In this document: one piece after another, positions 781 through 21,389 of the stretch | How positions within the stretch are numbered: position 1 is the stretch's first letter | Layout of the letters: every line of letters starts with the position of its first letter | From: a virus | Length of the DNA: 21,389 nt | Virus record (IMG/VR): IMGVR_UViG_3300046817_000813 | Span: 1 to 21,389 of that record | Reading direction: 5' to 3' (one strand) | Made by a program: the position numbers and the translations under genes | Notes under the pieces: generated by a model | Databases searched by the model: none | Told to the model about the DNA's origin: nothing | The model's input: the letters and a program-made list of their open reading frames with translations, nothing else

Positions 781-806
781 TTCACCCACCCAACGGAGGA
801 TCCACC

Positions 807-1115
807 ATGTACGAGAAAACCGCAGAACGCGCCCTGGGCGCCGGCAACGCCATGGAGCGCGACCGCAGCCCGGTCGAGGTTCTGTTCGAACGCCTGGCCG
901 AGCAGCTGGAGAAGACCCACCATGTGTTCAGCAGCCTGGAAGGCCGCATCGAGGGCGTCCTGGCGTCCGCGCCGGCGCAGCAGCCGAAAGTACCGCTGGT
1001 CGGCGTCGAGGCGGGCGCCGGCTCCAAGATCGAGGAACACCTGCAGCGCCTGATCAACCAGGCGAACGGCCTGACCGAGCGGATCGTGACCGTCATCGAC
1101 CGCGTGCGACTTTGA
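807..1115 (+). CDS. Small coiled-coil protein, unknown function (102 aa)
   Basis: The ATG at 807 is preceded by GGAGGA at 795-800, a strong ribosome binding site; this start is preferred over the long upstream extension of the same frame, which overlaps the real upstream gene out of frame. The protein has two predicted helices (about 22-50 and 70-100) separated by a Pro/Ala-rich linker (about 51-66). Hydrophobic residues are spaced as in a short coiled coil, and the C-terminus ends in RVRL. There is no membrane segment or signal peptide. Small two-helix proteins of this style are common beside phage late genes, but no function can be named from the sequence. Confidence 0.65.
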   Translation: MYEKTAERALGAGNAMERDRSPVEVLFERLAEQLEKTHHVFSSLEGRIEGVLASAPAQQPKVPLVGVEAGAGSKIEEHLQRLINQANGLTERIVTVIDRVRL

Positions 1116-1300
1116 GAGTAAAACCCTGATCCGCCGGCGGGAGGAAAGACGACGGCGCCTTGTCGAGATGACACAACGTCGAGCCTGAACCGCCGGCGAG
1201 CCATCCTTCCCCGGAGAAGCACGACGGCAACAGCAAAACGCACAACTCCCCCCACCTTTGGCCCGCCGGCACTTTTCACCCCACCCACAGGAGATCCGCC

Positions 1301-1738
1301 ATGAAATCATCCGCCCAACCCAAGCCCGTGCACAGCGAGAACCGCGCGCCCAAGGCCGCCGTCACCGAGCCGGTCGCCGAGCATGTGCCCGCCATCGAAT
1401 CCGGTCCCCTCGGCACCACAGTAGACGGCAAGCCGGTGACCCATGCGCAGGCGCAGGCACTGGCCGAGCTGGCCGTCGCCGCCGACGCCGCAAACCAGGC
1501 CGAGCGCGCCGACGCGGCCGCGGAAGCCAAAGCCGTAACCGACGCGGTGCGTGCCGAGCGCGAGGCCGATCAGGCCGCCGCCGACGCCGAGAAGGCGGCC
1601 GAACACGCCAAAGAAACCGCCGCCGCGGCCAAGGCGGCCAGAGTCGCGGCCGACAAGGCCAAGGCCGATGCGGCCAAACACGCCGACGAGCGCGCCAAAG
1701 CCAAGGCCAAGGAGAAGCCGCGGGCGGTCGCCGCATGA
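1301..1738 (+). CDS. Ala/Lys/Glu-rich helical protein (145 aa)
   Basis: The start has AGGAG at about 1288-1292 and an 8-base spacing. From about residue 48 to the end the protein is almost entirely Ala, Glu, Asp, Lys and Arg, predicted as one long charged helix or coiled coil of the kind seen in TolA-like spacers and some phage structural or anchoring proteins. The first 45 residues are more mixed and probably disordered. The stop overlaps the start of the lipoprotein gene (ATGA), linking the two in translation, so a rod-like partner or spacer for the lipoprotein is a reasonable guess but not demonstrated. Low complexity makes homology searches unreliable here. Confidence 0.7.
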   Translation: MKSSAQPKPVHSENRAPKAAVTEPVAEHVPAIESGPLGTTVDGKPVTHAQAQALAELAVAADAANQAERADAAAEAKAVTDAVRAEREADQAAADAEKAAEHAKETAAAAKAARVAADKAKADAAKHADERAKAKAKEKPRAVAA

Positions 1739-2499
1739 ACGCCGCGGCCAGGATCGGGGTCTGTGCAGGCCTGCTCCTGGCCGGCTGCGTCGAGGACACG
1801 CTGCGCCCCGACTACGCGGCCTACCTGCTGGCGCAGCAGAACATCGCGGCGGCGCAGGCCGAGCAGCGCTCGATGCTCGAGCGTGACCTGACCGCGCAGG
1901 CGAATCGCTGCACGACCGACGCCTGTTCCATCGCGGTCGCCGGCTTCCGCGCCCTGGCACTTTCCGGTGGCGGCCAAGCCACGATCCAGATCGCCTCGCC
2001 GCCGGTCGAGCGCAACGCTTGGGATCGGGCCATCTCCCTGATCGGCGCCATCTCGCCGCTGTTCGGCGACCTGGTGCAGTACAAGTCCATCGTCGAGGCG
2101 AACAAGACGCAACGCTTTACCTCGCAGGAGAACGCCCAGGTGCAGATCGCCCAGGCCACGGCCTGGACCGGCGTCCTGCGCGACGTGGCGGCCACGCCGA
2201 GCTTCTACGTCGGCGGCAACTACGCCGGCAACGACATGGTGGGCCGCGACAAGACCGGCCGCGACAGGATCGATGTCGGCACCGGCCTGTACAACACCGG
2301 CGACCGCAACCGCTTCAATTCCCCCAATCAGGGCGGCAACGCTTCGAACTGCCCCGGTGGCGCCGGCGGCACGGGCGCACCAGGCGGCACAGGCGGCTCT
2401 GTGGGCGACATGGGCGGAACGGGCGGCAACGGGGCGGCCGGGGGCGCGGGTGCGCCTGGCGGCGACACGGGCTGCGTCGGCGGGGCCGCCGGCGGCTAA
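1735..2499 (+). CDS. Phage-encoded lipoprotein with glycine-rich C-terminal tail (254 aa)
   Basis: The N-terminus is a lipoprotein signal: two-residue polar start, Arg6, a hydrophobic core, then the lipobox LLAGC with lipidation at Cys18. The residue after Cys18 is Val rather than Asp, so outer-membrane sorting is plausible in a Gram-negative host. Residues 19-200 are a mixed soluble region with a Cys pair (NRCTTDAC). From about Cys206 to the C-terminus at 254 the chain is glycine-rich (GG, GGTGG and GAPGG blocks) with a second Cys at 247, so a disulfide closing the tail is possible. The gene overlaps the Ala-rich gene upstream (ATGA). Possible roles are a lysis-associated, superinfection-exclusion or virion-tip protein; the sequence does not decide. 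Confidence 0.75.
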   Translation: MNAAARIGVCAGLLLAGCVEDTLRPDYAAYLLAQQNIAAAQAEQRSMLERDLTAQANRCTTDACSIAVAGFRALALSGGGQATIQIASPPVERNAWDRAISLIGAISPLFGDLVQYKSIVEANKTQRFTSQENAQVQIAQATAWTGVLRDVAATPSFYVGGNYAGNDMVGRDKTGRDRIDVGTGLYNTGDRNRFNSPNQGGNASNCPGGAGGTGAPGGTGGSVGDMGGTGGNGAAGGAGAPGGDTGCVGGAAGG

Positions 2500-2519
2500 T
2501 CCACCAACGGGAGTGCGAC

Positions 2520-2720
2520 ATGTCAGCTATCGGGAAAATGCTCAAGCGCCAGCCGATCAAGAAAACCGGCTCTTTCCGCGGCAAGTCCAATGCGTTAGGC
2601 ATGGGCGGCCAATCCGCCCAGCTCGCGGCACAGGGAGTGCCGGGAGGGGTTATCGGCAACCTGGCACGCGCGGCGCAGACGGCGCCAGGCCAGAAGAACT
2701 TCCACAGAGGCAAGCCATGA
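2520..2720 (+). CDS. Small basic phage protein, unknown function (66 aa)
   Basis: Begins 20 bases after the lipoprotein stop with a GGGAG site at 2509-2513. It is basic, with a Lys/Arg-rich first third (KMLKRQPIKKTGSFRGK) and a Gly/Ala/Gln-rich centre containing QGVPGGVIGNLARA. No membrane segment or enzymatic motif is visible. Its stop overlaps the next start (ATGA), so it belongs to the same operon as the two membrane peptides. A nucleic-acid-binding or virion-internal role would fit its charge but is inference. Confidence 0.6.
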   Translation: MSAIGKMLKRQPIKKTGSFRGKSNALGMGGQSAQLAAQGVPGGVIGNLARAAQTAPGQKNFHRGKP

Positions 2721-2881
2721 TTATCTACCTGAGTCTGCTCGTCGCCGTCATTGGTCTGGTGATGTACTTCATCTGCTCCAATCCCAAGCTTGAACACGTG
2801 GGCGAGATCATGCTGTGCTGCGGCCTGCTCGCGTTCCTGCTCAGTGCGCGTGAGGCGCTGACCGTCATCGGCGCCCATTGA
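2717..2881 (+). CDS. Small two-helix membrane protein (54 aa)
   Basis: Two hydrophobic segments are visible, about residues 2-20 and 30-44, separated by a short polar loop (SNPKLEHVG). This is the size and shape of a class II holin or other small phage inner-membrane protein. No dual-start motif is seen. The start is fixed by the ATGA overlap upstream, and the stop shares one base with the next start (TGATG). No endolysin gene is visible in the window, so a lysis role is only a possibility. Confidence 0.65.
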   Translation: MIIYLSLLVAVIGLVMYFICSNPKLEHVGEIMLCCGLLAFLLSAREALTVIGAH

Positions 2882-2988
2882 TGCTCGCGATCCTCGGCTG
2901 GATCGCGCTGGGCATCGGCATCGGCATCGTGCTGGTGTGGAGCCTGCTGAAGTGGGCGGAAAGCAACTGGCGCCCGCCGTGGTGGTGA
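2881..2988 (+). CDS. Very small single-span membrane peptide (35 aa)
   Basis: A 35-codon frame starts at the ATG sharing its first base with the preceding TGA stop, a typical coupled arrangement. Residues 2-23 form one hydrophobic span rich in Ile, Gly, Leu and Val, followed by a Lys/Glu patch and a Trp/Pro-rich end (NWRPPWW). Its stop lies exactly at the foot of the terminator hairpin that closes the region. It could be a small lysis helper or membrane peptide; tight packing and codon bias support it as real, but no family is recognised. Confidence 0.55.
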   Translation: MLAILGWIALGIGIGIVLVWSLLKWAESNWRPPWW

Positions 2989-3018
2989 AAAAAAAACGCC
3001 GGCATTTCGCCGGCGTTT
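2988..3018 (-). terminator. Intrinsic terminator at convergent gene ends, strongest for minus strand
   Basis: A perfect 10-bp stem (AAACGCCGGC at 2994-3003 with GCCGGCGTTT at 3009-3018) encloses a 5-base loop. Read on the minus strand, the hairpin is followed by six more T residues (2988-2993). On the plus strand only TTT follows. It sits between the convergent plus-strand operon and the minus-strand HTH gene, so it can end both but mainly the minus-strand transcript. Confidence 0.85.
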
Positions 3019-3041
3019 CGCGTACTGCGTTTGTCAGTACC

Positions 3042-3284
3042 TCAACTGCGCAGCAGCTCCCGGCGGCGCGCGTTGGCCTCGGCGAGGACTTCGAGCGTGA
3101 ACTGCGCGGTGTAGGGAATCTCGCGCATCGAGGCCGCTTCGACCGGCGCCAGCCACGCGCGCATCGTGCGCGTCGTCACGCGCAGCGCACGCGCCGCCGC
3201 GGCCTGCGTCAGGCCGGCCTTGTCGAGCAGCCGGCGCAGGTATTCCGGATCGGGGTTGTAGGTGGCGGGGTTCGGTTTCTTCAT
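3042..3284 (-). CDS. Small helix-turn-helix DNA-binding protein (80 aa)
   Basis: Residues about 15-45 form a helix-turn-helix (LLDKAGLTQAAAARALRV then TTRTMRAWL), the XRE/Cro-like pattern in which AGLTQ-A-A begins the first HTH helix and TTRTMR the recognition helix. The rest is a short C-terminal helix. The ATG at 3284 is chosen because it has AGGAAGG upstream and overlaps the stop of the methyltransferase-like gene; the longer frame upstream overlaps that gene out of frame. It is the last gene of the minus-strand block, directly before the terminator. It is a plausible regulator of this block or of late genes, and a candidate to bind the repeated operator-like sites upstream. Confidence 0.75.
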   Translation of the reverse strand: MKKPNPATYNPDPEYLRRLLDKAGLTQAAAARALRVTTRTMRAWLAPVEAASMREIPYTAQFTLEVLAEANARRRELLRS

Positions 3285-3952
3285 GGTCCTTCCTCGATGG
3301 GTGGTGCGGGGAGCGAGCCCCACTGATCGGCCATCGCTTCGGCGATGCCGGTGTACGTTTCGGCCCGTTTCTGCCAGCGGTCGTCCGCCGGCGTGAGCTT
3401 GTTCTGGCCGCTGTCGGTCTGGTTCGCCCAGCGCGGCCTGCCGTCGACCAGCCGCGGCTCGACGTAGCCCGTGGCGCGCAACCGCGGCAGGTTCTGCAGC
3501 CACAGGCAGGTGCGCTTCGAAGCGTCATGGCCGAATTGGTACGGCTGGATCGTCTGATCGGCGCGGCGGATGCGCGTGGAGATGCACGACACCGGGTTTT
3601 CGATCGCGATCCGGGCGATCGGCGCCGCCATCAGCCGGCGCACGAAGTCGAGCGCCTTTTCGGTTTCGGCCGCGCGCCCCGGCCGGCGCCCGTTCCAGTG
3701 CAGGCCCGACACGGCGAGGAACTGGCACGACGGGTGCGCGATCATCAGGTCGAAGGCGATCGGCTCCGCGCCGGCGCCGTCGAGGAAGTCGAAAATGTCG
3801 CCCTGATAATGCTGGCCGATCGGCGAGCCGATGGCGCCGAACGGCGCACCGTCGGCTGCCGGCAACAGGTCGCACGACACGACGAAGTGACCGCGCGCGG
3901 CGAACGCGCGGCGCACGGCACCGGAGGATTCGCAAGCCACCAGAACCTTCAT
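3281..3952 (-). CDS. Cytosine-C5-methyltransferase-like phage protein (223 aa)
   Basis: The N-terminus (MKVLVACESSGAV) looks like the SAM-binding loop and CDLLPA (28-33) like the strand that follows. A catalytic-loop-like segment IAHPSCQFLAVSG (71-83) has Pro74-Ser75-Cys76 where true C5-methyltransferases have Pro-Pro-Cys. Glu118-Asn119-Pro120 resembles the ENV motif. The end (RWQKRAETYTGIAEAMADQWG region, about 192-212) is typical of a phage family usually annotated as DNA cytosine methyltransferase. At 223 residues it is shorter than classic enzymes and has no clear target-recognition domain. The start ATG at 3952 overlaps the next upstream gene by ATGA. It may modify phage DNA against host restriction, or be a diverged relative acting on nucleotides; activity is unproven. 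Confidence 0.6.
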   Translation of the reverse strand: MKVLVACESSGAVRRAFAARGHFVVSCDLLPAADGAPFGAIGSPIGQHYQGDIFDFLDGAGAEPIAFDLMIAHPSCQFLAVSGLHWNGRRPGRAAETEKALDFVRRLMAAPIARIAIENPVSCISTRIRRADQTIQPYQFGHDASKRTCLWLQNLPRLRATGYVEPRLVDGRPRWANQTDSGQNKLTPADDRWQKRAETYTGIAEAMADQWGSLPAPPIEEGP

Positions 3953-7354: not shown

Positions 7355-7504
7355 TCAGCGGCGCCGGCGCCTTGGCCGCGGCGCCGGGCCTTCGGCGCCG
7401 TCGCATACGCCCCAGATGATCAAGGCGACGATCGCGAAAATGCCTACCATGATCGCGATGGCGACAATGCCCATCGGGTCTGCCAATTCCTGCGCCAGTG
7501 TCAT
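7355..7504 (-). CDS. Small single-span membrane protein with polybasic tail (49 aa)
   Basis: The ATG at 7504 overlaps the stop of the gp88-like gene (ATGA) and opens a 49-codon frame ending in TGA at 7355-7357. Residues about 11-31 are one long hydrophobic span (GIVAIAIMVGIFAIVALIIW), followed by CDGAEGP and a terminal RPRRRRR. The positive tail would stay on the cytoplasmic side. Such small phage membrane proteins can act in superinfection exclusion or envelope changes, but the sequence does not say. It is below usual gene-finder length limits and easy to miss. Confidence 0.6.
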   Translation of the reverse strand: MTLAQELADPMGIVAIAIMVGIFAIVALIIWGVCDGAEGPAPRPRRRRR

Positions 7505-8325
7505 GCGGCCACCTGCAGCGCAAGCGGGTTTGCAATCTGGTACTGAACGCGACGGTTAAACTTCGCCGCATCGATCACGAAAGGCCCGGTACTTTTCTTG
7601 GCGCGGCCCTTGGCCTTCAGGCCGACGACAACGCCAGCCGGATCAAGGAATCGCAGATCGGTCTCGTCGCCGTTGACCACGGGCCGCCCAAGGAATTCGG
7701 CCGGGAATTTGCCATCGCGAAAGCACACTACGATGTTCAGGCCCGCGGCCATGGCCTTGGCCACGTGCGGCAGGTAGCCGGCCGCGGAACTGAACGAATA
7801 GCTCAGGTGATAATTGCCGATGTGCGACACGCGGCGATTCGAAATTTTGGTGTAATCGTAGGCGGTCAGGTCCGGGAAAGCCGCGAACATGTGCGGATAG
7901 GTGGCGCCGTTCCGGATGACCGGGACATTTTCCCAGCGGATGTCTGAGGTACCATTGAGGCGCAGGACTGGCGTTAGACCACGCTTCAGCGCGCGACGCT
8001 GGAAGGCCTCAACCTCGCGCACCAATTGCGCGAGAAAGGCCGGCCGGTCTAGGTGAAACCAACGGGTGCGCGCGATGCGGCAGCGCTGAACCGGATTTTC
8101 CGGCAGCGGGCCGGCCGGTGTATCGAACGTGGCGCCGTTTTTTGAGTAGCTGGAATGCAAGCCCGACACGTTCAGACATTCGTGCACGCATTGCGCCAGC
8201 GTGGCCATCGGGCAGACTTCGAACCCGCTAGCATTCGCGGGCGCGAGATACAGCACGGCGGTCATAAAGCCGCGGGCCTGACCTTTGACCGTCTTGGCGT
8301 TTGAATCGATGTTGAGTAATTGCAT
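7501..8325 (-). CDS. Gp88-like phage protein (274 aa)
   Basis: The pattern fits the phage family known from mycobacteriophage gene product 88. The opening MQLLNIDSNAKT is a typical start for it. There is a Cys cluster (Cys38, Cys46, Cys50 in CPMATLAQCVHEC), a basic RTRWFHLDR segment (86-94), then LRLNGTSDIRWE (121-132), YDYTK (156-160) and NYHLSYSFSS (171-180). The conserved Cys group suggests a metal or iron-sulfur site, but the biochemical activity of the family is not established to my knowledge. The ATG has AAGGA about 11 bases upstream and a promoter candidate at 8368-8397, so this is the first gene of the minus-strand block. Codons are less G/C-ending than in the head genes. Confidence 0.75.
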   Translation of the reverse strand: MQLLNIDSNAKTVKGQARGFMTAVLYLAPANASGFEVCPMATLAQCVHECLNVSGLHSSYSKNGATFDTPAGPLPENPVQRCRIARTRWFHLDRPAFLAQLVREVEAFQRRALKRGLTPVLRLNGTSDIRWENVPVIRNGATYPHMFAAFPDLTAYDYTKISNRRVSHIGNYHLSYSFSSAAGYLPHVAKAMAAGLNIVVCFRDGKFPAEFLGRPVVNGDETDLRFLDPAGVVVGLKAKGRAKKSTGPFVIDAAKFNRRVQYQIANPLALQVAA

Positions 8326-8367
8326 GGTGGCGCTATCCTTCGGAACACGGCGAAATACCGTGCGCGA

Positions 8368-8397
8368 AGTATAGGACGAAACGTCCGCCTAGCGCAA
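8368..8397 (-). promoter_or_regulatory. Promoter with embedded operator for the minus-strand block
   Basis: On the minus strand TATACT (8368-8373) is a 5-of-6 match to the -10 box; TTGCGC (8392-8397) sits 18 bases upstream as a weak -35. Filling the spacer next to the -10 is GGACG-AAA-CGTCC (8374-8386), a perfect 5-bp-arm inverted repeat ideally placed for a repressor to block polymerase. Transcription would start near 8361, giving a short leader before the gp88-like gene at 8325. Confidence 0.55.
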
Positions 8398-8478
8398 TAG
8401 CTACAGCGTCACAATTTCACGCTTTCGCCGCGGCCGGCGTTGACGTGATCGGCCGGCTGGCGTAGCGTTCCGGACTCG

Positions 8479-8526
8479 AAAAAATTTTTGGCCCGTTGAC
8501 CTGGCGCGCGGCCGAAAAAAATTTTT
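8479..8526. repeat. Paired A-tract/T-tract blocks upstream of the small terminase gene
   Basis: Two near-identical blocks, six A then five T at 8479-8489 and seven A then five T at 8515-8526, each preceded by CG and followed by G, with centres 37 bp apart. AnTn tracts bend or stiffen DNA and are common at protein-assembled sites. TTGAC boxes lie beside them (8440, 8496, 8525), but none has a convincing -10 partner. Similar blocks occur on the other side of the terminase gene (9632-9640, 9715-9724). Confidence 0.6.
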
Positions 8527-8549
8527 GACGTATCAAGGTCTTCCGCGCG

Positions 8550-9104
8550 ATGTCCGATCATTCCGGCAATCCCATCGCGCCAGCCGAACCCCCCGCAACA
8601 TCCGAAGCAAAACCCGACGTCGGCGCCAGCAAACAACATCACGGCGGAGCCGGCCACCCCATGGACCAAGGCCCGCTTGTCGCCGAAATCTGCGAACGAT
8701 TGGAACGCGGCGAAGACCTAACTTCCATCTGCCGCAGTGATCCAAAATTCCCGAGCTATAACGCCATTCGCGATTGGGCGGAAAATTCGGCCGAAGTTGG
8801 TGCAAACATCGCCCGCGCGCGTGCACGTGGTTTTGACACTATCGCATTGAATTGTCGAAAGATTGCGCGCGGCGACACAGAGGCCGGCAGCACGGGCGAC
8901 ACGCAACGCGATCGCCTGATTGTCGACACCGATTTAAAGCTTTTGGCCAAATGGGATCCCAAGAGATACGGCGATCTCTTGCGACTGGGCGGGCCGAACG
9001 GCGAAAGCTTGGCGCCGCCCGTGGTGAATCAGTTCATTGTGCAGCCGGTCATTGCGGTCGCGCGGCCCGCGGCGCTTGAGGTTGAGCCCGATGCTGGCGC
9101 CTGA
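8550..9104 (+). CDS. terS: Terminase small subunit
   Basis: Recognises viral DNA and hands it to the large subunit for packaging. The pattern is that of the Sf6-type small-terminase family: an N-terminal helix-turn-helix (about 43-80: ICERLERGEDLTSICRSD, then SYNAIRDWAENSAE), a helix with ANIARARARGFDTIA, and the family-typical ending LLAKWDPKRYGD (131-142). Before it is a Pro/Ala/Ser-rich segment (1-37), probably disordered; a later in-frame ATG at 8661 could be the start, but neither start has a strong Shine-Dalgarno. Codons here end in A or T more often than in terL or portal. Unusually, terL does not follow at once: two small genes and a long intergenic region separate them. Confidence 0.8.
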   Translation: MSDHSGNPIAPAEPPATSEAKPDVGASKQHHGGAGHPMDQGPLVAEICERLERGEDLTSICRSDPKFPSYNAIRDWAENSAEVGANIARARARGFDTIALNCRKIARGDTEAGSTGDTQRDRLIVDTDLKLLAKWDPKRYGDLLRLGGPNGESLAPPVVNQFIVQPVIAVARPAALEVEPDAGA

Positions 9105-10153: not shown

Positions 10154-10197
10154 AAAAAAAGGGAAGTGAGCTAGAGCACACTTCCCTTTCGTGTGCT
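10153..10197. terminator. Overlapping alternative hairpins before terL; minus-strand intrinsic terminator
   Basis: Hairpin 1 pairs AAAGGGAAGTG (10158-10168) with CACTTCCCTTT (10179-10189), 11 bp. Hairpin 2 pairs AGCACAC (10175-10181) with GTGTGCT (10191-10197). They share 10179-10181, so only one can form fully. On the plus strand hairpin 1 has no T-run after it; on the minus strand it is followed by T residues (10153-10160 read as A on plus), a good terminator for antisense transcription. Confidence 0.6.
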
Positions 10198-10210
10198 AGG
10201 GGCGCCTGAC

Positions 10211-11566
10211 ATGCCCGCCTACGACGAGCGCGTGCAGGTCCGCCGGGTGCACGTGCAGATTCCGGGGCCGCTCATGCCGCTGCTGGAACTCGGCCGCTGG
10301 CGCTTCAAGATCGCCCACGGCGGCCGCGGCGGGGCCAAGAGCCACTCGTTCGCCCAGGCGCTGATCATGCTGGCCGACCAGAACCCGCTGCGCATCGCCT
10401 GCTGCCGCGAGGTGCAGAAGACGCTGGCCGAATCCTCCAAGCAGGTACTCGAGGACTACATCGACCGCATGGGCGTGGCCGACTCGTTCTCGATCATCAA
10501 GAACGCGATCATCCACCGCCGCACCGGCAGCGCGTTCGGCTTCCACGGCCTGCGCGAACACACCGCCAAGTCGATCAAGTCGCTCGAGAACGTCAACATC
10601 GCCTGGGTCGAGGAGGCCGACTCGGTGTCCAAGCGCTCCTGGGAGATGCTCATTCCCACGATCCGCCCCGCGCAAAAAGGCGCCGTGTCGGAGATCTGGG
10701 GCTCGTTCAACCCGGACAAGGCCGACGACTACGTCTACGACCGCTTCGTCGCGCACACCGACCCCGACGCGCTGGTCATCCCCGTGAGCTGGCGCGACAA
10801 CCCGTTCTTCCCGCCGGTGCTGGAAGCCGAGCGGGTCAAGATGCGCGCGCTCAACGAGGATCTCTACCAGCACATCTGGGAAGGCAAGTGCCGCTCCGAA
10901 GTGGGCCTCATGTTCAAGCGCACCATGTTCGGCTGGTACGACCGCCTGCCCGAGCGCCTCTCGCTGTACATGTCTTCCGACTACGCGGTGACGCAGGACG
11001 GCGGCGACTTCACCGAACACGGCCTCTTTGGCCTCGATGAAACCGGCGAGACGTTCCTCGTTGACTGGTGGTACGGGCAGACCGCGCCGGAAGCGTGGAT
11101 CGAGGCGGCCGTGCACCTCATCCGCGCCTACAAGCCGCTGATCTGGTTCGAGGAGAAAGGCCAGATCCTGCGCGCGCTGACCGCGGCGATCGACGCGCGC
11201 CTGTTCGAACAGGATCCGCCGGTGTGGGTCTACCGCCACCCGCTGGCGTCCGCCGGCAACAAGGCCGCGCGCGCGATGGGCTTCCTGGCGCGGTGTTCGG
11301 CCGGCAAGGTGCACCTGCCGCGCGGCGCGGCCTGGGCCGAGCGCCTGGTCAACCAGCTGTGCGCGTTCACCGGCGAGAAAGGCCGCATCGACGACGGCGT
11401 GGACGTGTGTTCGCTGTTTTCGCGCGGCCTTGACGCGACCATGAATGCGCGGGAAGCTGCGCCGGCGCCGAAAAAGCCGTTCGTGCCGTTTACCCGCGCG
11501 CACTTCGAGGGCATCTCGGTGGACGAGGCAGAGGAAATCGAACGCAAGCGGGAGTACTACTCGTGA
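10211..11566 (+). CDS. terL: Terminase large subunit (ATPase-nuclease)
   Basis: The packaging motor that cuts concatemeric DNA and pumps it through the portal. The Walker A loop is GGRGGAKS at 37-44; Walker B runs through NVNIAWVEEAD (about 127-137) with the catalytic Glu near 135. Residues about 260-400 are the RNase-H-like nuclease domain: SSDYAVTQDGGDFTEHG, then LIWFEEKGQ, then DDGVDVCSLF near 396-405 carry the expected acidic residues. Length 451 is normal for the PBSX/Terminase_3-like group. ATG 10211 is chosen because AGGGG lies about 9 bases upstream; a GTG at 10193 is also in frame but lies in the hairpin. Its stop overlaps the next GTG start. Confidence 0.92.
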   Translation: MPAYDERVQVRRVHVQIPGPLMPLLELGRWRFKIAHGGRGGAKSHSFAQALIMLADQNPLRIACCREVQKTLAESSKQVLEDYIDRMGVADSFSIIKNAIIHRRTGSAFGFHGLREHTAKSIKSLENVNIAWVEEADSVSKRSWEMLIPTIRPAQKGAVSEIWGSFNPDKADDYVYDRFVAHTDPDALVIPVSWRDNPFFPPVLEAERVKMRALNEDLYQHIWEGKCRSEVGLMFKRTMFGWYDRLPERLSLYMSSDYAVTQDGGDFTEHGLFGLDETGETFLVDWWYGQTAPEAWIEAAVHLIRAYKPLIWFEEKGQILRALTAAIDARLFEQDPPVWVYRHPLASAGNKAARAMGFLARCSAGKVHLPRGAAWAERLVNQLCAFTGEKGRIDDGVDVCSLFSRGLDATMNAREAAPAPKKPFVPFTRAHFEGISVDEAEEIERKREYYS

Positions 11567-12263: not shown

Positions 12264-12456
12264 GCGACCCGGTGATGCTGATGGCGGTGATCAAGGGCAT
12301 CACGGCGTGGGCCACCCCGTCGATGTCCCTGCGCTTCGCCGCCGCGCGCCTGACGCAGCCCAAGGCGCCGCTGACCTACCTGCTGCGCCCGCACGTGAGC
12401 CCGGCGAAGGCGAACGGCTCGCCGCGCCAGCGCCGCCACCCAAGCCGGTGACGTAA
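12178..12456 (+). CDS. Possible overlapping gene or frameshift product
   Basis: From GTG 12178 this frame carries the best codon pattern for about 28 codons (VIGSLEWKKYTRQHPHLVRA), then loses it near 12262 where the 63-aa gene's frame takes over. The frame has no stop until 12454-12456. It could be a short overlapping gene, a +1 frameshift extension of the preceding gene, or the trace of a small insertion/deletion. No ribosome binding site is clear. Listed with low confidence because real coding is likely for its first third only. Confidence 0.3.
   Translation: MNVIGSLEWKKYTRQHPHLVRAANEPVYERPGDADGGDQGHHGVGHPVDVPALRRRAPDAAQGAADLPAAPAREPGEGERLAAPAPPPKPVT
12260..12451 (+). CDS. Small unknown protein upstream of portal (63 aa)
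   Basis: Starts with an ATGA overlap at 12260 and has strong G/C third-position codon use throughout, so it is probably genuine. The first 25 residues are hydrophobic (MLMAVIKGITAWATPSMSL), perhaps one weak membrane or amphipathic helix. The end is basic and Pro-rich (SPRQRRHPSR). It lies five bases before the portal gene start, in the same frame order as the head operon. Unknown function. Confidence 0.5.
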   Translation: MSDPVMLMAVIKGITAWATPSMSLRFAAARLTQPKAPLTYLLRPHVSPAKANGSPRQRRHPSR

Positions 12457-14967
12457 ATGCCTGTCGACGGCGTCTTCCAGCAGGGACCGGACCAGGACAC
12501 CTCGATCCTGGAAGCCGGCATGCGCGGCGGCGTGGCGGTGAAAAAACAGGTCGACCCAGCGGTCTACGAAAAAGAGTGCGCCGACGTCCGCCAGTGGAAA
12601 AAGAAGATCGAGGAGGCGCGCAAGTTCGATGAAAACGCGCGCAAGCGCTACGCGATCGACCGCTCCTACGCCCGCGGCGACGGCGGCGCCTATACCGTCA
12701 TCGTCGACATCGCGCAAAGCTACATCGACGTGCTGGGCTCGATCCTGTTCGCCAAGGAACCCGACCTCAACATCTCGCCGGCGCCCTCGACCGAGCCGCC
12801 GCCGCAGAAGGAGCTGGAAAAGCAGGCGGCCAAGGAGTCGGCCGACGCCACCCAGGCCAAGGCCCAGCAGCTCGGCGCGCAGATCGGCCCGCTGGTCGGC
12901 CAGGCCGCCGCCACCGGCGGACTGCCGCAGATCATGCAGCAGCTGCAGGGCCTGGATCCGGGCAAGATCGCCGCGTCGGTCACGTCCGACGTCACGCCGC
13001 AAGCGATCGCGCAGCAGCGCGCGCAGCCCTACCAGCAGCGCCGCGCCGACGCCAAGCAGATCGCCGCGACCGCCGAGCTGTCGGTCATCCACCTGTGGAA
13101 ACAGGCGGGCCTGAAAGCCAAGGCCAAGCCGCTGGTGAAGTCCGCGCTGACCGTGGCCATCGGCTGGCTCAAGGTCACCTGGCAGGAGCGCACCGCCGGC
13201 CAGGACGACCCGACCATGCAGGCCGAGCTGGACACGCTCCAGGAGCGCATGGCCAAGGTCAAGGCGCTGACCGCGCAGATGGCCGAACCGGGCGGCTCCG
13301 CGCAGCCCGACGCCGACGCGGCTGAACTGGCCCAGCGCATCGCCGGCCTGCAAGACTCGATCAACGCGATCGCGCGCCGCGGCCTGGCGATCGACTTCGT
13401 CAACGCCGAGGACATCCAGTGTTCGACCGACGTCATGGGCCTGTGGGCGTACCTGGACTGCTCCTGGATCGCGCACCGATCGCTCATCCCCCGCCCCGAC
13501 GGCGAGGCCATGTTCCCCGACATCGACACCGACGACTGGGGCAAAGCGTCGCTGTACTACACGAAGAAGCCGAAGGATCCGACCGAAAAACGCGACGTCG
13601 GCGTGATCGCCGCCGACAACATGACGGCCGAGGACGCCGACTCGTTTTCCAAGGGCGGCGGCTCGGACGCGCCGACGCAAGGGCCGGGGCAAATCCTGGT
13701 GTGGGAGATCTGGTCGCGCTCGATGGGCATGATCGTGACCGTCATCGAGGGCATCGAGTGCTACGCGCGGCAACCGTACAAGCCCGACCCGACGACGACG
13801 CGGTTCTACTCGTTCTTCCAGTACCCGATCGGCGTCATCGACGGCGAGCGCCACCCGCGCTCGCTGATTTCGCGGTCGTGCACGCTGATCGATGAATACT
13901 GCGCGGCGCGCAGCGCGTGGAAGAAGGTGCGCTCGCGCGGCATCCCGAAGATGGGGTTCGACTCCACGCTGTACGAGGCGACCGAGATCAAGAAGCTCGA
14001 GGGCGCCACCGAGCAGGAGTTCGTGGGCCTCAAACCGCGCAAGCCCGGCGCCCCGATCCGCGACGCGGTGGTCGAGATCCGCCACGCCCAGGTCGACGCC
14101 GCGCTGTACGACACCGGCCCGATCCGCGCCGAGCTTGAAACCATCTGGGCCGTGCAGGAGGCGCTGTCGTCCTCGATCCACACCGCCAAGACCGCGACCG
14201 AGGCCGAGATCCAGGACAAGGGCACCTCCGCGCGCACCGGCTTCACGCGCGATGACCTCGACGACATGTTCACCGACCTGGCGCGCTACACCACCGAGAT
14301 CGCGTTCCAGAAGCTCTCGCGCGACGACGTGGTCGAGATCGCCGGTGCCTGGGCGCTGTGGCCCGAGGGCATCACGCCGGATCTGCTGCCGGCCTTGCTC
14401 AACGTCGAGGTCAAGGCCGGCTCTTCCGGCAAGCCCAACACGTCCGCCCGCCAGCAGGCCTGGGCGACGCTCATGCCGATCATCTCCAACGGCATCACGC
14501 AGATCGGCGCGCTGCGCGGCTCCACGCCCGCCGAAATCGCCGACTGCCAGGAAGAACTGATCATCGAGACGATCAACCGCACCGGCGAGCGGGTCGACGC
14601 CGAGCGCTTCCTGCCGGATCCGCCGGCCGCCGGCGAGCAACCGCCGCCGCCGCCGGGGCCGCCGCAGCCGATGGACGAGCAGGCCTTCACCGGCCAGCAG
14701 GTGACCGCGATGACCGCGGTGCTGACCGACGTGCGCGCCGGCCTGATCTCGCCGGCATCGGCCGCGCCGATCCTCATGGCCTGCTTCCCGAAGGTCGACC
14801 CGCAGCTGATCTCCGCGATGGTCGCCGGCGTCGTGCCGGCGCCTGCCCCGATCATCGGGGCGGCCAAGCCCGGCGAAGAGGCCAGGCCCGGTGACGCGAC
14901 CGAACCGGGCGAGGCGCGGGAGCCCGGCGAGCCGCCGGCGATGCCGCCGCCACCCACCGTCCAGTAA
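12457..14967 (+). CDS. Portal protein (836 aa)
   Basis: Forms the dodecameric ring at one vertex of the head through which DNA enters and leaves. The position (after terL, before scaffold and capsid), size and features support this: an N-terminal charged helix, AQSYIDVLGSILFAKEPDL (about 87-105), an Ala/Gln-rich insertion (120-200), then a long core with the LWAYLDCSW and RFYSFFQYPIG segments, a helical stem region, and LSSSIHTAKTATEAEIQDKG typical of P22-like or large podoviral portals. The C-terminus (about 800-836) is a Pro/Gly/Glu repeat (KPGEEARPGDATEPGEAREP), probably disordered. The start is ATG 12457; a later ATG at 12520 with GGAAG upstream is possible. Confidence 0.85.
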   Translation: MPVDGVFQQGPDQDTSILEAGMRGGVAVKKQVDPAVYEKECADVRQWKKKIEEARKFDENARKRYAIDRSYARGDGGAYTVIVDIAQSYIDVLGSILFAKEPDLNISPAPSTEPPPQKELEKQAAKESADATQAKAQQLGAQIGPLVGQAAATGGLPQIMQQLQGLDPGKIAASVTSDVTPQAIAQQRAQPYQQRRADAKQIAATAELSVIHLWKQAGLKAKAKPLVKSALTVAIGWLKVTWQERTAGQDDPTMQAELDTLQERMAKVKALTAQMAEPGGSAQPDADAAELAQRIAGLQDSINAIARRGLAIDFVNAEDIQCSTDVMGLWAYLDCSWIAHRSLIPRPDGEAMFPDIDTDDWGKASLYYTKKPKDPTEKRDVGVIAADNMTAEDADSFSKGGGSDAPTQGPGQILVWEIWSRSMGMIVTVIEGIECYARQPYKPDPTTTRFYSFFQYPIGVIDGERHPRSLISRSCTLIDEYCAARSAWKKVRSRGIPKMGFDSTLYEATEIKKLEGATEQEFVGLKPRKPGAPIRDAVVEIRHAQVDAALYDTGPIRAELETIWAVQEALSSSIHTAKTATEAEIQDKGTSARTGFTRDDLDDMFTDLARYTTEIAFQKLSRDDVVEIAGAWALWPEGITPDLLPALLNVEVKAGSSGKPNTSARQQAWATLMPIISNGITQIGALRGSTPAEIADCQEELIIETINRTGERVDAERFLPDPPAAGEQPPPPPGPPQPMDEQAFTGQQVTAMTAVLTDVRAGLISPASAAPILMACFPKVDPQLISAMVAGVVPAPAPIIGAAKPGEEARPGDATEPGEAREPGEPPAMPPPPTVQ

Positions 14968-14982
14968 CCAGGAACATGACTC

Positions 14983-16209
14983 ATGGCCAAAGCCGCCGCT
15001 TCGACCCCCGCCGCTACCGCAGCTGCAACGCCCGCCGCGGCCGAACCCGCGTCCACCCCCGCGCCAACCACGGGTACGCCCGAGGGCGATGCGGCAGCGA
15101 TCGCCACTTTCGACGCGGCGATGGCATCGGGTGCGGCGGAAACCGGGACCGATGGCGATCCGCCTGGCGGCGGATCGATTATTGAGGCCGAGCCGCCGGC
15201 GCCGGCCGAGGGCGTCGAGCCCGGCGAGGAAGCCGGCGAAGAGGCCGCCGAGGGCGAGCCGCCGGAAGGCGAAGAGCCGCCGCCCGAGGGCGAGGGCGAG
15301 CCCGCCCAGCCGGCGGTCGAGGCCGCCGCGCCGGCCAAGCCGGCCAAGGACAAGCCCGAGGACGCCGCCGCCAAGGCCGCGATCGAAAAAGAGATCACCG
15401 ACCGCGGCCTGAAGGGCGACACCGCGACCCGCTTCCGCGAGCTGTCGCACCAGGTGCGCGAGCTGTCCCAGATCCGTGACGTCGAGGTGCCGCGCCTCAA
15501 AGAGGTCGAGCGGCTGCACAACCAGTGGCAGGGCATCGTGGCCGATTCCACCGCCACCGCGCCGCAGCTGAACCAGGCGCTGGGCTACATCCAGTCGGTC
15601 AATTCCGGCGACCCGGCCCGTCTGGCGGTCGCCGCCAAGGCCATGCTCGAGGAGGTCAAGTGGGCCTTCGGCAAGCTCGGCTGGGAGCTGCCCGGCGTGG
15701 TCGATCCGGTGGCCGCGCATCCCGACCTGGTCGAGGCGATCGAAACGGGCGAACTCACGAAAAAGGGCGCGCTCGAGATCGTGCAGGCGCGCGCGCTGAA
15801 CGCCGCCAATGCCTCGCGCGACCAGCAGACCAACGCCCAGCGCGAGATCGCCGCGGCCGAAACCGAGGCGATCAAGGAGATCGACTTGCTGTCCGCACGG
15901 TTGAAGCGCGCCGACCCGGCGTTCGCGGCGAAACTGCCGTACCTGAAGCCCGCCGTGGACACCATCCGCGAAACGCTGCACCCGTCGAAGTGGCCCGCGG
16001 CGATCGAGCGCGCCTACCGGGCGCTGCCGACGCCCGCCGTCACGCCCGCGCCGCCGCCGCCGGCCCGCCGTCCCGGCCCCTCGCCGATGCCGCTGCGCCC
16101 CACCGGCGGCTCGCAGTCGCCGGCCGCCACGGTGCGCAAATTCACCAAGGAACAGGTCGATGCCGGCGATCCGTTCGACCTGGGCGTGGCCGAAGCGTCG
16201 GGCCGGTAG
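14983..16209 (+). CDS. Capsid scaffolding protein (408 aa)
   Basis: Scaffold proteins guide capsid assembly and leave before DNA packaging. This one has the expected composition: a long Ala/Pro/Glu-rich disordered N-terminus (1-115, PEGEEPPPEGEG), a coiled-coil core rich in Glu/Arg/Leu (about 130-330, RELSHQVRELSQIRDVEV), and a basic Pro-rich end (AVTPAPPPPARRPGPSP) before FTKEQVDAGDPFDLGVAE, which resembles the short capsid-binding tails of phage scaffolds. ATG 14983 has AGGA at 14969-14972. It lies directly between portal and capsid genes. The N-terminal half is low complexity, so homology may be visible only in the core. Confidence 0.75.
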   Translation: MAKAAASTPAATAAATPAAAEPASTPAPTTGTPEGDAAAIATFDAAMASGAAETGTDGDPPGGGSIIEAEPPAPAEGVEPGEEAGEEAAEGEPPEGEEPPPEGEGEPAQPAVEAAAPAKPAKDKPEDAAAKAAIEKEITDRGLKGDTATRFRELSHQVRELSQIRDVEVPRLKEVERLHNQWQGIVADSTATAPQLNQALGYIQSVNSGDPARLAVAAKAMLEEVKWAFGKLGWELPGVVDPVAAHPDLVEAIETGELTKKGALEIVQARALNAANASRDQQTNAQREIAAAETEAIKEIDLLSARLKRADPAFAAKLPYLKPAVDTIRETLHPSKWPAAIERAYRALPTPAVTPAPPPPARRPGPSPMPLRPTGGSQSPAATVRKFTKEQVDAGDPFDLGVAEASGR

Positions 16210-16212
16210 GCG

Positions 16213-16241
16213 TTGACACCCTTGGGGCCGTGGCGTATCAA
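16213..16241 (+). promoter_or_regulatory. Promoter for the capsid gene
   Basis: A perfect -35 TTGACA (16213-16218), a 17-base spacer and TATCAA (16236-16241, 4 of 6 to TATAAT) lie in the 200-base gap between scaffold and capsid genes. Transcription would begin near 16248, giving a structured leader of about 160 bases before the capsid start. It explains extra capsid transcription independent of the upstream operon. Confidence 0.65.
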
Positions 16242-16409
16242 TCCCGCCCACGACCGAAATCGCCGTAACCTGGGGGTCGCGCCCCGGCGGTCGCTCCGCG
16301 AAGCTGTAGGCCGGGCTCGCATCCGGTAGCACTGTACTGAGGCGTCGTGTTCCTCGCGCGGAAAGTTCAAGCCACCTGGCTTTTCCTTTCCCCTGTCGAG
16401 GACACCCCC

Positions 16410-17465
16410 ATGCCCGTCACACCCGCGCAGTTGGCGCTCGGCGCCAATTACCAGATCCAGGCCTACGCCAAGAACGACCCGATCGACCAGTTCACGAAGG
16501 ACCGGCCCTTCAGCCAGTGGCTGATCGAAAACATGGAACAGGTCGTATACGGCAACGGCATCTTCAACGAGAAGATCCGCTTCACGAACAATTCGAACTA
16601 CCAGAATTTCACCGGCGACGGCCAGGTCAGCTACAACCGCAAGGACACGGTGCGTCTGGCCGCGTTCTACCACTACGAGGCCCACGACGGCTTTGCGCTC
16701 AACGAAACCGAGCTGGCCGACAACGGCATCACGATGACGGACGACAAGACCGCCACGCCGACCGATTCGGAGAAGATCCAGCTCGTCAACAAGCTCAAGG
16801 AGGGCTACGCCACCTTGAAAGACGGCTTCCAGGAGCAGTGGGATCTGGAGGCGCACCGCAACGGCACCGCCTCGACGCTGGCCGTGCCGGGTCTGGACGC
16901 GCTCATCTCCCTCACCCCGGCCGTCGGCATCATCGGCGGCATCGACCGCTCCAACCCCGCCAACGCCTACTGGCAGAACTTCGCCTCGACCGCCATCGCC
17001 GCCGGCACCATCCTGGCCAAGATGGAAACGATGTGGCGCAACACGATCACCTTCGGCAAGATGGGACCGCCGAACAAGATCCTCTGCGGCTCCACGTTCC
17101 TCGACCAGCTCGCGCTCGAGATCCGCCAGCAGACCGGCACCTCCTTCCAGGTCGTCCAGCCGGCCAAGGGCGGTTTCGTCCTCGACGGCGCGCGCTCGCG
17201 CGTGTTCTTCAAGGGGGTCGAGGTCGAGTGGGATCCGACATTCGAGACGCTCGACGCGCTCGACGCGCCGTCCACCCCGTGGACCAAGCGCTGCTACATG
17301 CTCAACAGCAAGGTGCTGAAGCTCAAGCCCAACAAGGGCCGCTGGCTGATCAACCGCAAGCCGCCGCGCATGTACGACCGCTACGTGTACTACTTCGGCC
17401 TCACCGCCGACTACGGCATCACGATCCAGAAGCCCAACTCCTGCGGCGTGCTGGCCCTCGTCTGA
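16410..17465 (+). CDS. Major capsid protein (351 aa)
   Basis: Placed right after the scaffold, with the length (351) and soluble alpha/beta pattern of HK97-fold capsid proteins. The N-terminal arm (LGANYQIQAYAKNDPIDQF) is followed by an extended-loop-like segment (about 60-90), a long helix with QEQWDLEAHRNGTAS (about 145-160), and a beta-rich C-terminal half (VFFKGVEVEWDPTFETLD and KVLKLKPNKGRWLI). ATG 16410 has GAGGA at 16398-16402; the GTG at 16347 in frame has no such site. No protease or N-terminal propeptide is evident. I am confident of the role from position, less sure of the exact capsid subfamily. Confidence 0.8.
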   Translation: MPVTPAQLALGANYQIQAYAKNDPIDQFTKDRPFSQWLIENMEQVVYGNGIFNEKIRFTNNSNYQNFTGDGQVSYNRKDTVRLAAFYHYEAHDGFALNETELADNGITMTDDKTATPTDSEKIQLVNKLKEGYATLKDGFQEQWDLEAHRNGTASTLAVPGLDALISLTPAVGIIGGIDRSNPANAYWQNFASTAIAAGTILAKMETMWRNTITFGKMGPPNKILCGSTFLDQLALEIRQQTGTSFQVVQPAKGGFVLDGARSRVFFKGVEVEWDPTFETLDALDAPSTPWTKRCYMLNSKVLKLKPNKGRWLINRKPPRMYDRYVYYFGLTADYGITIQKPNSCGVLALV

Positions 17466-18353: not shown

Positions 18354-21300
18354 GTGGCGCTTTCCCTCAACCCCGACACCGCCGACGACTACGAAACCCA
18401 GTCCTTGGCGGACATGCGCTCGATGGTGTTCGGCTCGCTGGCCTTCATCGACCCGATCACCTACCTGTCGGCCCAGCGCACGTTCGCGAATCTGCGCGCC
18501 GACATCCTGGCGTCACTGGGCTTTTCCGCCGGCCTTTCCTACACGCCGCCGCGCACGCTCAAGCAGATCCGCGACTCGATCGTCAACCGGCTGGGCCTGG
18601 CGCTGCCGCTGGTCGCCGGCTTTCTCGACAGCTTCAACAACATCTCGGCCGACGTGTACAACGCGCTCGGCTACGCCGGCCAGCCCGTTTCGCCGCCGGG
18701 TGTTTCCACGCTGATCGGCCTGTGGGTCGACCAGGCGCAGCAGACGCTGTGGTCGCGCATCGAATTCGACAAGGGCTCGGGCGGCTCCACCGCCAACGCG
18801 CGGCCGCCGAAATTCGTCGCCGGCGCCAACAGCGTGATCGACGCCACGGCGATCCGCATGCTCGCGATCGCCTACGGCAAGGCCCACGACGGCTCGCCCG
18901 ACGCCGCCGGCTGGAAGAACGAGTGCGAGAAGTACCTCGCCGACCTCACCCAGCGCACGCCGCCGAACATCATCGGCCTGTGCAACGCCACGATCATCGG
19001 CGCGCACAACACCCTCATCCGCCGCTTCGAGGTCAACTCGCCGGTCACCGACCTGACGTTCGGCAAGAAGATCATGCAGAGCGGCGACTACCGCGACGTG
19101 TCGGCCGGCGGCGGCTCGGACGCCGACGTCGCGCAGGCCGACGACAACGCCGTCGAGCTGCTCGCCCTGGCGATGATCAAGGAGAAGATCGGCCACCCCG
19201 ACGCCAAGGCCGCGCAGGCGCAGTACGACCAGTACCTGGCCGACCTGATGAAATATTCGCCGCCCGGCTACCTGGACGCGGTGAATTCGGCCCTGACGAG
19301 CGCGCACGAAACGATCTATCGCCGCTACGTCGTCGGTTTCGTCGGTCCCACGCAGCACGCGCAGACGCCCGGCTCGACGGTCGATCGCTTCCGCCTCGAC
19401 GGCGACTTGCCCGTCGTCGATGACCAGGCCGTCTATCTGCTGGCCCTGGCCGGGCTCGAGCAGAAATACGCCGTGCCGAGCTACAAGCAGACGCGCATGG
19501 ACTACGAAACCTACATGGACGACCTGTTCAAGCGCTCGCCGCCCTATGCCACGCGCGCGATCAACTCGATCTTGAAACAGGTGCAGGAGCAGCTGTACCG
19601 GCAATATTCGCTGTTCCGCTGCAAGTACTGGTACACCTGGACGCTGCTGGCCGGCCAGCGCTTCTACGGCACGTTCGGCCACGACGCGGCATCCGCGCTG
19701 CCGCCGACCGCGGTGACGGCCGTCATCGGCAATCCGGTCACCTCGCACATGATGAAGCAGGCGCGCTACTTCGCCGCCGGCGTCACCCTCGACAGCGGCA
19801 AGGTGCTGGTCATGGGCGGCTACGACGCCGCCGGCAACATCCTGAAAAGCGCCGAGCTGTTCGACCCGGCCGTCGGCACCTGGACGTCGACCGCCAACCG
19901 CATGAATTTTCCGCGCGCGCACCACACGGCGACCAAGCTTCTCGACGGCACCGTGCTGATCGTCGGCGACGTGTTCGGCAACGCCGCCACCACCGCGGAG
20001 ATCTACGATCCGGACTTCGACACGTTCACGCCGGTCGGCGCGACGGTCAAGCAGCGCCTCCTGCACACCGCCACGTTGCTGCTCGACGGCCGCGTGCTGA
20101 TCGTCGGCGGCCAGATCGACACCACGTCGGCCGAGCTGTTCGATCCGGCCACGAAAAAGTTCACCGCGACCGCGCCGCCGACCGTCGCCCGCAACGGCCA
20201 CTGCGCCGCGCTGGTCGCCGACGGCCGCGTGCTGGTCGCCGGCGGCGCCGCGCAGAACACGTGCGAGTGCTTCTCGCCGGTCGCCGGCACGTGGACGGCC
20301 GTGCCCGGCACGCTGTCCTCGATCCGCAACTACGCCACGGCGACGACGACCGGCGACGGCCGCGTGCTGATCGCCGGCGGCACGACGACGACGCTGATCA
20401 CCGGCGCGGTCAACACCGCCGACATCTTCGATCCGTTCGTCACGGGCCTGGCGCCGGTTGCCGGCACGATGACCTTCACGCGCTCCTCGCACAGCGCGAT
20501 CCAGCTGCCCAACGGTTTCGTGCTGATCGCCGGCGACAACAACGGCAGCGCCGGCGCGGAGCTGTACGATCCCGGCGCCGGCACGTTCCAGGTGGTGCCG
20601 TTCGCCATGCCGGTGGGCGTGAGCTGCGGCACGATCAACACGACGCTCAACGGCCGCGTGCTGATCGCCGGCGGCGTGACCGCCACGGTGCTGCCGAACC
20701 AGCAGCATCCCGGCGCCAAGCCGGCCGTCAGCACGTGCATGTTCTACGACTACGCGCCGCGCACCTTCAATTTCACCGGCAACTTGAACTGGGGCACCGC
20801 CTCGTACTACCGCGTGCGCGCGGTCACACCGAACGGCGCGGGCGGGCCGAGCATCGTCGTCCAGGTCGTCGCCGTGCCGCACGACAATGCCGTCGTGGTG
20901 GGCTGGACGCCGGCGCCGGGGCAGACCTTCGTGCGCTGGTTCGACGTGTACCGCAGCAACAGCAATTTCGGCGGCACGCCGACCAACCAGCAATTCATCG
21001 CGCGCGTGCCGGCCACGCAGACCAGCTACATCGACGAAGGCACGGCACCGCAGACCGGCCTGCCGATGGACAGCCCGAGCATGGTCCTGGATTCCTCGCG
21101 CGGGCCGGGGCGCCTGGATCCGCGCAAGATCGAGTGGGTCGGCATCTCGCAGGACAACGTCTCCTGGCGCGAACTGGTGATCGGCGTGCCGCCGACGACG
21201 TACAACAACAACCAGCAGGGCATCCCGCAGTTCGCGGAGATCCGCCAGGCCATCGAGCTGTGGCCGACGCCGGCGATGACCGGCTGGAAGCTGCGCATCA

Positions 21301-21389
21301 AAGGATCCTTTGCGCCGTTCGTGTTCGAGGCCGACACCGACCGCACGACCATCGACTGGCAGGCGATCTGGTTCTTCACCGTGGCCGAA
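18354..21389 (+). CDS. Giant tail/adaptor-type protein with seven-blade kelch propeller, 3' end outside window
   Basis: This frame is open from GTG 18354 (AGGAG about 9 bases upstream) to the last base, at least 1012 codons with no stop. The N-terminal region contains tandem units of about 65 residues plus linkers: a (D)D-x-A-(V/I) helix start (163, 263, 356), then (T/S)PP (203, 303, 396, and an earlier partial at 114), then an (R)RY/F end. Residues about 465-806 are seven kelch repeats with (D/S/N)G-x-VL(I/V)-x-G(G/D) at 481, 531, 578, 623, 668, 720 and 766, the number in a closed seven-bladed propeller. About 807-915 is an FN3-like beta domain (SYYRVRAVTPNG, WFDVYRSNSN). A beta-rich piece (RLDPRKIEWVG from 920) follows, and a new helical unit seems to begin at Asp1001. 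The role is probably tail, adaptor or receptor-facing. Confidence 0.85.
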   Translation, partial: MALSLNPDTADDYETQSLADMRSMVFGSLAFIDPITYLSAQRTFANLRADILASLGFSAGLSYTPPRTLKQIRDSIVNRLGLALPLVAGFLDSFNNISADVYNALGYAGQPVSPPGVSTLIGLWVDQAQQTLWSRIEFDKGSGGSTANARPPKFVAGANSVIDATAIRMLAIAYGKAHDGSPDAAGWKNECEKYLADLTQRTPPNIIGLCNATIIGAHNTLIRRFEVNSPVTDLTFGKKIMQSGDYRDVSAGGGSDADVAQADDNAVELLALAMIKEKIGHPDAKAAQAQYDQYLADLMKYSPPGYLDAVNSALTSAHETIYRRYVVGFVGPTQHAQTPGSTVDRFRLDGDLPVVDDQAVYLLALAGLEQKYAVPSYKQTRMDYETYMDDLFKRSPPYATRAINSILKQVQEQLYRQYSLFRCKYWYTWTLLAGQRFYGTFGHDAASALPPTAVTAVIGNPVTSHMMKQARYFAAGVTLDSGKVLVMGGYDAAGNILKSAELFDPAVGTWTSTANRMNFPRAHHTATKLLDGTVLIVGDVFGNAATTAEIYDPDFDTFTPVGATVKQRLLHTATLLLDGRVLIVGGQIDTTSAELFDPATKKFTATAPPTVARNGHCAALVADGRVLVAGGAAQNTCECFSPVAGTWTAVPGTLSSIRNYATATTTGDGRVLIAGGTTTTLITGAVNTADIFDPFVTGLAPVAGTMTFTRSSHSAIQLPNGFVLIAGDNNGSAGAELYDPGAGTFQVVPFAMPVGVSCGTINTTLNGRVLIAGGVTATVLPNQQHPGAKPAVSTCMFYDYAPRTFNFTGNLNWGTASYYRVRAVTPNGAGGPSIVVQVVAVPHDNAVVVGWTPAPGQTFVRWFDVYRSNSNFGGTPTNQQFIARVPATQTSYIDEGTAPQTGLPMDSPSMVLDSSRGPGRLDPRKIEWVGISQDNVSWRELVIGVPPTTYNNNQQGIPQFAEIRQAIELWPTPAMTGWKLRIKGSFAPFVFEADTDRTTIDWQAIWFFTVAE

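Follow-up and report, generated by a model that had tools for sequence, protein, structure and literature searches.

Tail adaptors are usually viewed as passive rings, and receptor binding is credited to fibres, spikes and tips. The adaptors of phages T7 (gp11) and KP32 are built of a single helix bundle and carry no insert. They share their domain plan with the adaptors of SU10, twelve of which make up a ring between portal and nozzle, their dock loops protruding radially; the SU10 dock region sticks out of the neck and holds the tail fibres (PMC9509320). Kelch propellers are known in phages from proteins of the jumbo phages CBB (CBB_552), PhiPA3 and Noxifer, which were among the structure matches in BFVD and of which CBB_552 was found in the virion (PMC5259590). 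Unlike the arrangement described here, these are separate proteins of large myophages and are not reported within an adaptor. Ig-like and FN3 domains on phage structural proteins are proposed as accessory binders (PMC13320782, citing Fraser 2006); they are the same kind of mobile beta module, displayed on capsid and other structural proteins, whereas the FN3 domain found here on an adaptor probably carries a second inserted domain. In a full-text literature search of incomplete coverage, neither a tail adaptor containing a kelch propeller nor an adaptor with several bundles turned up.

The stretch analyzed here (the window, 21,389 nucleotides of a viral contig) ends inside a gene that is likely to encode an adaptor of the SU10/T7 type with FN3 and kelch domains in its dock loop and multiplied helix bundles, which would serve as a secondary adhesin displayed at the neck. 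The features of the locus are given in Table 1.

Table 1. Features of the window and of the adaptor gene (blades are given in residues of the adaptor)
Feature	Position	Strand	Basis or remark
Terminase large subunit	10193..11566	+	PF04466, E 8.2e-36
Probable portal protein	12457..14967	+	Size and place; no family match
Major capsid protein	16347..17465	+	phrog_9953, E 1.8e-22; anchor for finding syntenic relatives
Adaptor gene with kelch insert (putative)	18354..21389	+	GTG start; 1012 codons in window; C-terminal part on L002:1-315
Four consecutive alpha-1 motifs, residues 17-32, 43-58, 68-83, 93-108	18402..18677	+	PSSM scan
Bundle 1 (alpha-2 and alpha-3/4), residues 114-202	18693..18959	+	PSSM scan, model, shuffle test
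Bundle 2, residues 203-301	18960..19256	+	PSSM scan, model, shuffle test
Bundle 3, residues 302-395	19257..19538	+	Extra bundle compared with three-bundle relatives
Alpha-2 of last bundle and left part of fibre-dock region, residues 396-449	19539..19700	+	
Probable FN3 strand A before propeller, residues 450-461	19701..19736	+	Alignment; strand 452-461 in model; weak statistics
Seven-bladed kelch block, residues 462-807	19737..20774	+	Pfam matches, AlphaFold2 strands, PDB matches, motif cores
Kelch blades 1-4	residues 475-512, 523-563, 572-606, 617-649		
Kelch blades 5-7	residues 662-701, 712-747, 760-807		
Rest of FN3 and linker, residues 808-918	20775..21107	+	FN3 profile 26.2 bits; model
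Right dock region and first helix of last bundle, residues 919-1012	21108..21389	+	

A tail adaptor homologue behind the capsid gene

About 90 syntenic loci were collected from IMG/VR through relatives of the capsid gene, and an adaptor search added more. Relatives of the ends of the window protein were located one or two small frames behind the capsid gene wherever the contig reached that far. Short forms of 218-265 aa matched the family PF24175 (SU10_adaptor) well above cut-off, and matches above cut-off were obtained for L011 (58.2 bits), L041 (55.4), L117 (38.9) and L060 (27.2). The score of the complete relative L007 rose from 22.0 bits to 34.2 bits, the latter above cut-off, once its insert was removed. 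The window protein gave no PF24175 match in the Pfam profile search, with or without its insert; its own score being too low, it was filed as an adaptor because of its homology to L007 (E 4e-159), L117 and L041.

The fold of helix bundle and beta dock was seen in the kelch-free, three-bundle homologue L041, the model of which reached a pLDDT of 85.9. Its ten best PDB matches were chains of adaptor size from the tail complexes of podoviruses, with VP1 (5.5e-6) and SU10 (1.7e-5) at the head and Pa223, cyanophage A4, GP4 and N4 also represented; the window model matched kelch only, with all 50 PDB matches listed falling on the kelch block. By homology to adaptors, the gene is predicted to encode the head-tail connector of an SU10/T7-type tail. 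It resembles SU10 gp11 (PF24175, PDB 7z47) in the helix bundle, the beta dock region and the C-terminal helical part, in its place among capsid and tail genes, and in the fold matches of L041. In contrast, SU10 gp11 has one bundle in about 230 aa, has no kelch or FN3 domain, and holds separate trimeric fibres by its dock loop. T7 gp11 and the KP32 adaptor gave no sequence match in the searches, PDB sequence searches with the adaptor profiles yielded nothing relevant, and a search of annotated phages with the window protein or its C-terminus found Myxococcus phage Mx1 only, through a weak kelch match, and nothing matching the adaptor part.

The frame remains open up to the end of the window. 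The first 123 bases of L002, a viral contig of 26,715 bases, match the last 123 of the window at 122/123 positions and extend the frame by 63 codons to a stop, which gives an adaptor of about 1075 aa. The join is supported by L007, whose C-terminus is like the end supplied by L002 (50% identity over 99 residues) and whose order of genes after the adaptor is also that of L002. The missing 3' end was thereby recovered, and the start of another unit at Asp1001, suspected in the preliminary description, carries on into a complete last helical pair.

The order expected for an SU10/T7-type adaptor is terminase, portal, capsid, adaptor, nozzle; the putative portal and nozzle genes are in these places and conserved among the relatives, but match no portal or nozzle family. 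The probable nozzle gene, located 3' of the adaptor, comprises two adjoining frames in the virus of the window (L002:312-1130 and 1131-3290), in L007 (13399-14187 and 14184-16358) and in L006 (10141-10917 and 10917-13412), and one frame of 588 aa in L011 (12261-14027) and L009 (12332-14098). A collagen-like fibre gene with a BppL_N match (L182:5944-8085) lies on the contig continuing the window. On the minus strand, a gene at 7501-8325 strongly matches Pfam GP88 (E 6.2e-31) and also matches phrog_1617, a family of unknown function. Two long minus-strand frames, 12376-16332 (1318 aa) and 18513-21389 (958 aa), lie opposite the portal and adaptor genes; they are most likely a by-product of a GC3 near 0.94 and no genes.

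The kelch-FN3 block and its insertion site

In a BLAST comparison of the window protein with L041, the left match stopped at L041 residue 308 and the right match resumed at 310; the flanks ended at 306/310 for L007 and 310/310 for L117. When the insert was removed in silico, the window protein and L007 each aligned with L041 in a single alignment (E 4e-63 and 6e-114, respectively). Since the flanks adjoin in the kelch-free L041 with a gap of about one residue, the kelch-FN3 block, 464-535 residues long among carriers, is a clean insertion. The insertion point is between a beta hairpin (YTWTLxxGQRFYG) and the strand KIEWVGI, and would correspond to a loop of the fibre-dock region, equated with the SU10 dock through fold likeness at 10-15% identity and the SU10 structure paper (PMC9509320). 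The proposal of a propeller inserted in a repeat-built adaptor is well supported by these comparisons: kelch-free homologues exist at the same gene position, both flanks meet cleanly in L041, and the kelch block has very probably been inserted into an adaptor homologue.

Most relatives carry no insert. FN3 alone was found in L062, L080 and L180, and FN3 with kelch in the window protein, L007, L060 and L117. Among 86 complete, distinct adaptors, five had more than 60 residues at the dock site, three of them kelch with FN3 and two FN3 only. Beyond these 86, the window protein and L004, both cut by contig ends, also carry dock-site inserts, L004 being a carrier by likeness only as it breaks off 11 residues into the insert. 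The FN3-insert adaptor of L080 lies in two overlapping frames (8136-8597 and 8584-9102), which may reflect a sequencing error, a pseudogene or a programmed frameshift. An N-terminal extension or extra units were present in 47/86 complete adaptors. Extensions of 60-500 aa were seen in L047, L062, L016, L083, L170, L173 and L119, some adaptor extensions containing bacterial Ig domains (Big_9); with so many adaptors extended, the N-terminus is a second site for added domains.

In the Pfam profile search the window adaptor matched Kelch_1 (83.3 bits, E 7.6e-24) and Kelch_6 (E 1.6e-23). Seven motif cores V-L-x-x-G-G with the double glycine start at residues 484, 534, 581, 626, 671, 723 and 769, at the spacing of 45-52 codons that had been described. 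The AlphaFold2 model, built on a 31-sequence alignment (mean pLDDT 76.2), contained helical bundles before the kelch block, exactly 28 strands at residues 475-807, which fall into seven sets of four, and an FN3-like strand set thereafter; pLDDT was mostly 80-95 across the first six blades. The predicted number of blades is therefore the seven first proposed. In Foldseek, the kelch domain of NS1-binding protein was matched at 2e-19, and target TM-scores to kelch domains of about 0.66-0.78 in most matches listed make it likely that the blades close into a ring. L007 also has seven blades, as have L060 and L117 when counted by eye. Between carriers the kelch blocks are 32-41% identical, versus 50-58% for the right dock region.

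The FN3 parts behind the propeller scored 26-78 bits in all four carriers on a profile of kelch-free FN3 domains. They seem to be without a first strand of their own, a short candidate strand lies just before the kelch block, and MAFFT splits the FN3 domain of L062 around kelch in the same manner. Across the four carriers, random 12-mers equalled the strand-A score in 9%, 6%, 85% and 3% of draws, which means that sequence alone does not prove kelch to be nested in FN3. We regard it as fairly likely that the propeller sits inside the FN3 domain, which is itself in the dock loop. Thus, an FN3 part does follow kelch as first described, but the propeller probably lies within the domain and not simply ahead of it. 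In L117 (2971-6369), a second FN3-like domain occupies residues about 120-250 in the alpha-2/alpha-3 loop of the first bundle, a site that is the counterpart of the dock loop of the last bundle.

Multiplication of the helix bundle

The units before kelch are copies of the helix bundle of the adaptor itself. The similarity of alpha-3/4 between bundles 1 and 2 and between bundles 2 and 3 beat 1000/1000 shuffles. The repeats previously noted upstream of the propeller are thus true repeats, but no simple tandem units: a series of alpha-1 helices (18-29, 44-54, 69-79 and 94-104 in the window model) is followed by units of alpha-2 and alpha-3/4, and then by alpha-2, dock and alpha-3/4, with the dock region kept by the last bundle only. 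Eleven adaptors had more than one bundle, namely, four bundles in the window protein and L004, three in L007, L060, L117, L041, L086 and L075, and two in L036, L076 and L119. The number of N-terminal alpha-1 motifs equalled the number of bundles in 11/11 (PSSM scan), with the last bundle of L004 assumed beyond the contig end and one low-scoring match in the unrelated N-terminal extension of L119 left out. This rule was noticed in these sequences and tested on them together with L117, L119 and the L036/L041 comparison, which came later. L036 and L041 are 82% identical where aligned, although L036 has one alpha-1 and one bundle fewer. Equal counts of alpha-1 and bundles in adaptors with 2, 3 or 4 bundles would be a new feature of this family, as judged by the motif scan.

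What the four-bundle forms have beyond the three-bundle forms is alpha-1 no. 2 and bundle no. 3. In mean scores, the alpha-1 rows of the shorter forms match 1, 3 and 4, the alpha-3/4 rows 1 and 2, and the alpha-2 rows 1, 2 and 4, with 2 and 3 nearly tied. The extra layer thus joins alpha-1 no. 2 to bundle no. 3, as a nested duplication would predict, and a parallel pairing of alpha-1 helices and bundles is disfavoured. A dock-less adaptor copy may have been inserted between alpha-1 and alpha-2 of another copy, in the manner of a matryoshka; we put this forward tentatively, as somewhat less probable than the sum of other routes. Each such insertion would add one alpha-1 and one bundle at once, so that one step per layer yields the order seen, whereas plain tandem duplication would require two distinct events coupled to each other. 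The bundles would then form a zipper, the first alpha-1 being paired with the last bundle, and the loops of the outermost copy would accept a further round of nesting, with FN3 entering the dock loop and kelch entering FN3. If this is true, the neck is an extensible display tower. TRF detected no tandem repeat at the DNA level, and the duplications are therefore old. A single clade of all multi-bundle adaptors was rejected on the capsid tree (p-AU 5e-9).

Probable position at the neck, proposed role and history

An FN3-like domain would have entered the dock-region loop in an ancestor that the window virus shares with a few relatives. To this domain a seven-bladed kelch propeller would have been added, probably between the first and second strand. 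The helix bundle would have multiplied separately, perhaps by the nested duplication, with the dock left on the last bundle only. Each adaptor would display one propeller sideways at the neck, at most 12 per particle if the ring is an SU10-like dodecamer, and the propeller would act, next to the product of the separate tail-fibre gene, as a secondary adhesin that binds sugar or protein on the host surface. The insert in the dock loop would probably surround the neck of the particle with a ring of modules that bind the host surface, and binding of the propellers to the host surface is the slightly favoured role. Of the two positions initially suggested, the head-tail joint is likely and the tail tip is not. 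Replacement of the fibres by the propeller is disfavoured; the virus also has the collagen-like fibre gene on L182 and need not rely on the propeller as its sole adhesin.

The propeller may instead be a structural spacer or collar that makes the neck wider and more stable, or supports the fibres or the capsid vertex, with no host contact. The dock region holds fibres in SU10 (PMC9509320), a separate fibre gene is present here, and bulky decoration is tolerated, to judge from the many extended adaptors. However, the kelch and FN3 inserts are rare and confined to few lineages, where a needed structural part would be kept, and kelch has diverged more than the dock, as expected of an exposed binding module and also of a relaxed one; we consider a spacer rather unlikely. 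A variant of the preferred adhesin explanation concerns copy number only. In it, one four-bundle chain occupies four of the twelve positions in the ring, giving three propellers per particle and not twelve. In its favour, the bundles each come with an alpha-1 of their own, the dock region is retained in the last bundle alone, and bundle counts of 2, 3 and 4 all divide 12. Against it, small numbers divide 12 by chance, the antiparallel pairing is explained equally well by bundles stacked radially or axially, and most portal subunits would be without a C-terminal embracing loop. This stoichiometry is unlikely, slightly more so than the spacer.

The seven-bladed kelch is also the fold of galactose oxidase, and Glyoxal_oxid_N matched the window protein with 42.2 bits (cut-off 37.5), which would fit a galactose or glyoxal oxidase-type enzyme acting on surface sugars. 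No invariant cysteine column was found in the kelch block of the window protein, L007 and L060, so the Cys-Tyr copper site of such oxidases (AA5) is not conserved in these three carriers; the best PDB matches were protein-binding kelch domains, with oxidases scoring lower at an rmsd near 18 Å. An enzyme is very improbable on these grounds. The probability that the kelch-FN3 block is a mis-assembly or chimera is practically negligible. Although the window is one metagenomic contig ending inside the gene, GC3 is even along the whole adaptor gene, and the artefact was refuted by the independent contigs L007, L060 and L117, which have the same arrangement and junctions with kelch blocks 32-41% identical.

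Where the secondary adhesin reading holds and a binding fold sits in the adaptor dock, host recognition can be hard-wired into the connector. The series of empty loop, FN3, and FN3 with kelch, together with one to four bundles, offers ready natural variants for tests of how much growth a symmetric ring tolerates and how an accessory adhesin is gained.

On the capsid tree, the kelch carriers clustered; forcing them into a single clade was not rejected (p-AU 0.746) and raised the likelihood, so one gain of kelch is enough. The kelch-free L036 is close to the carriers on this tree, and loss or exchange of kelch must therefore be allowed. FN3-only forms appeared at three places. The lower identity of kelch than of the dock region, together with the even GC3, indicates an old acquisition followed by faster change. 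No kelch-form adaptor was present at three bacterial loci from a genome scan or in 234 genomes of one host family, which contained kelch-free or FN3-only adaptors only. Kelch-free relatives occurred in Luteibacter and Stenotrophomonas genomes and in one Thioalkalivibrio MAG, which points to gammaproteobacterial hosts for this virus group.
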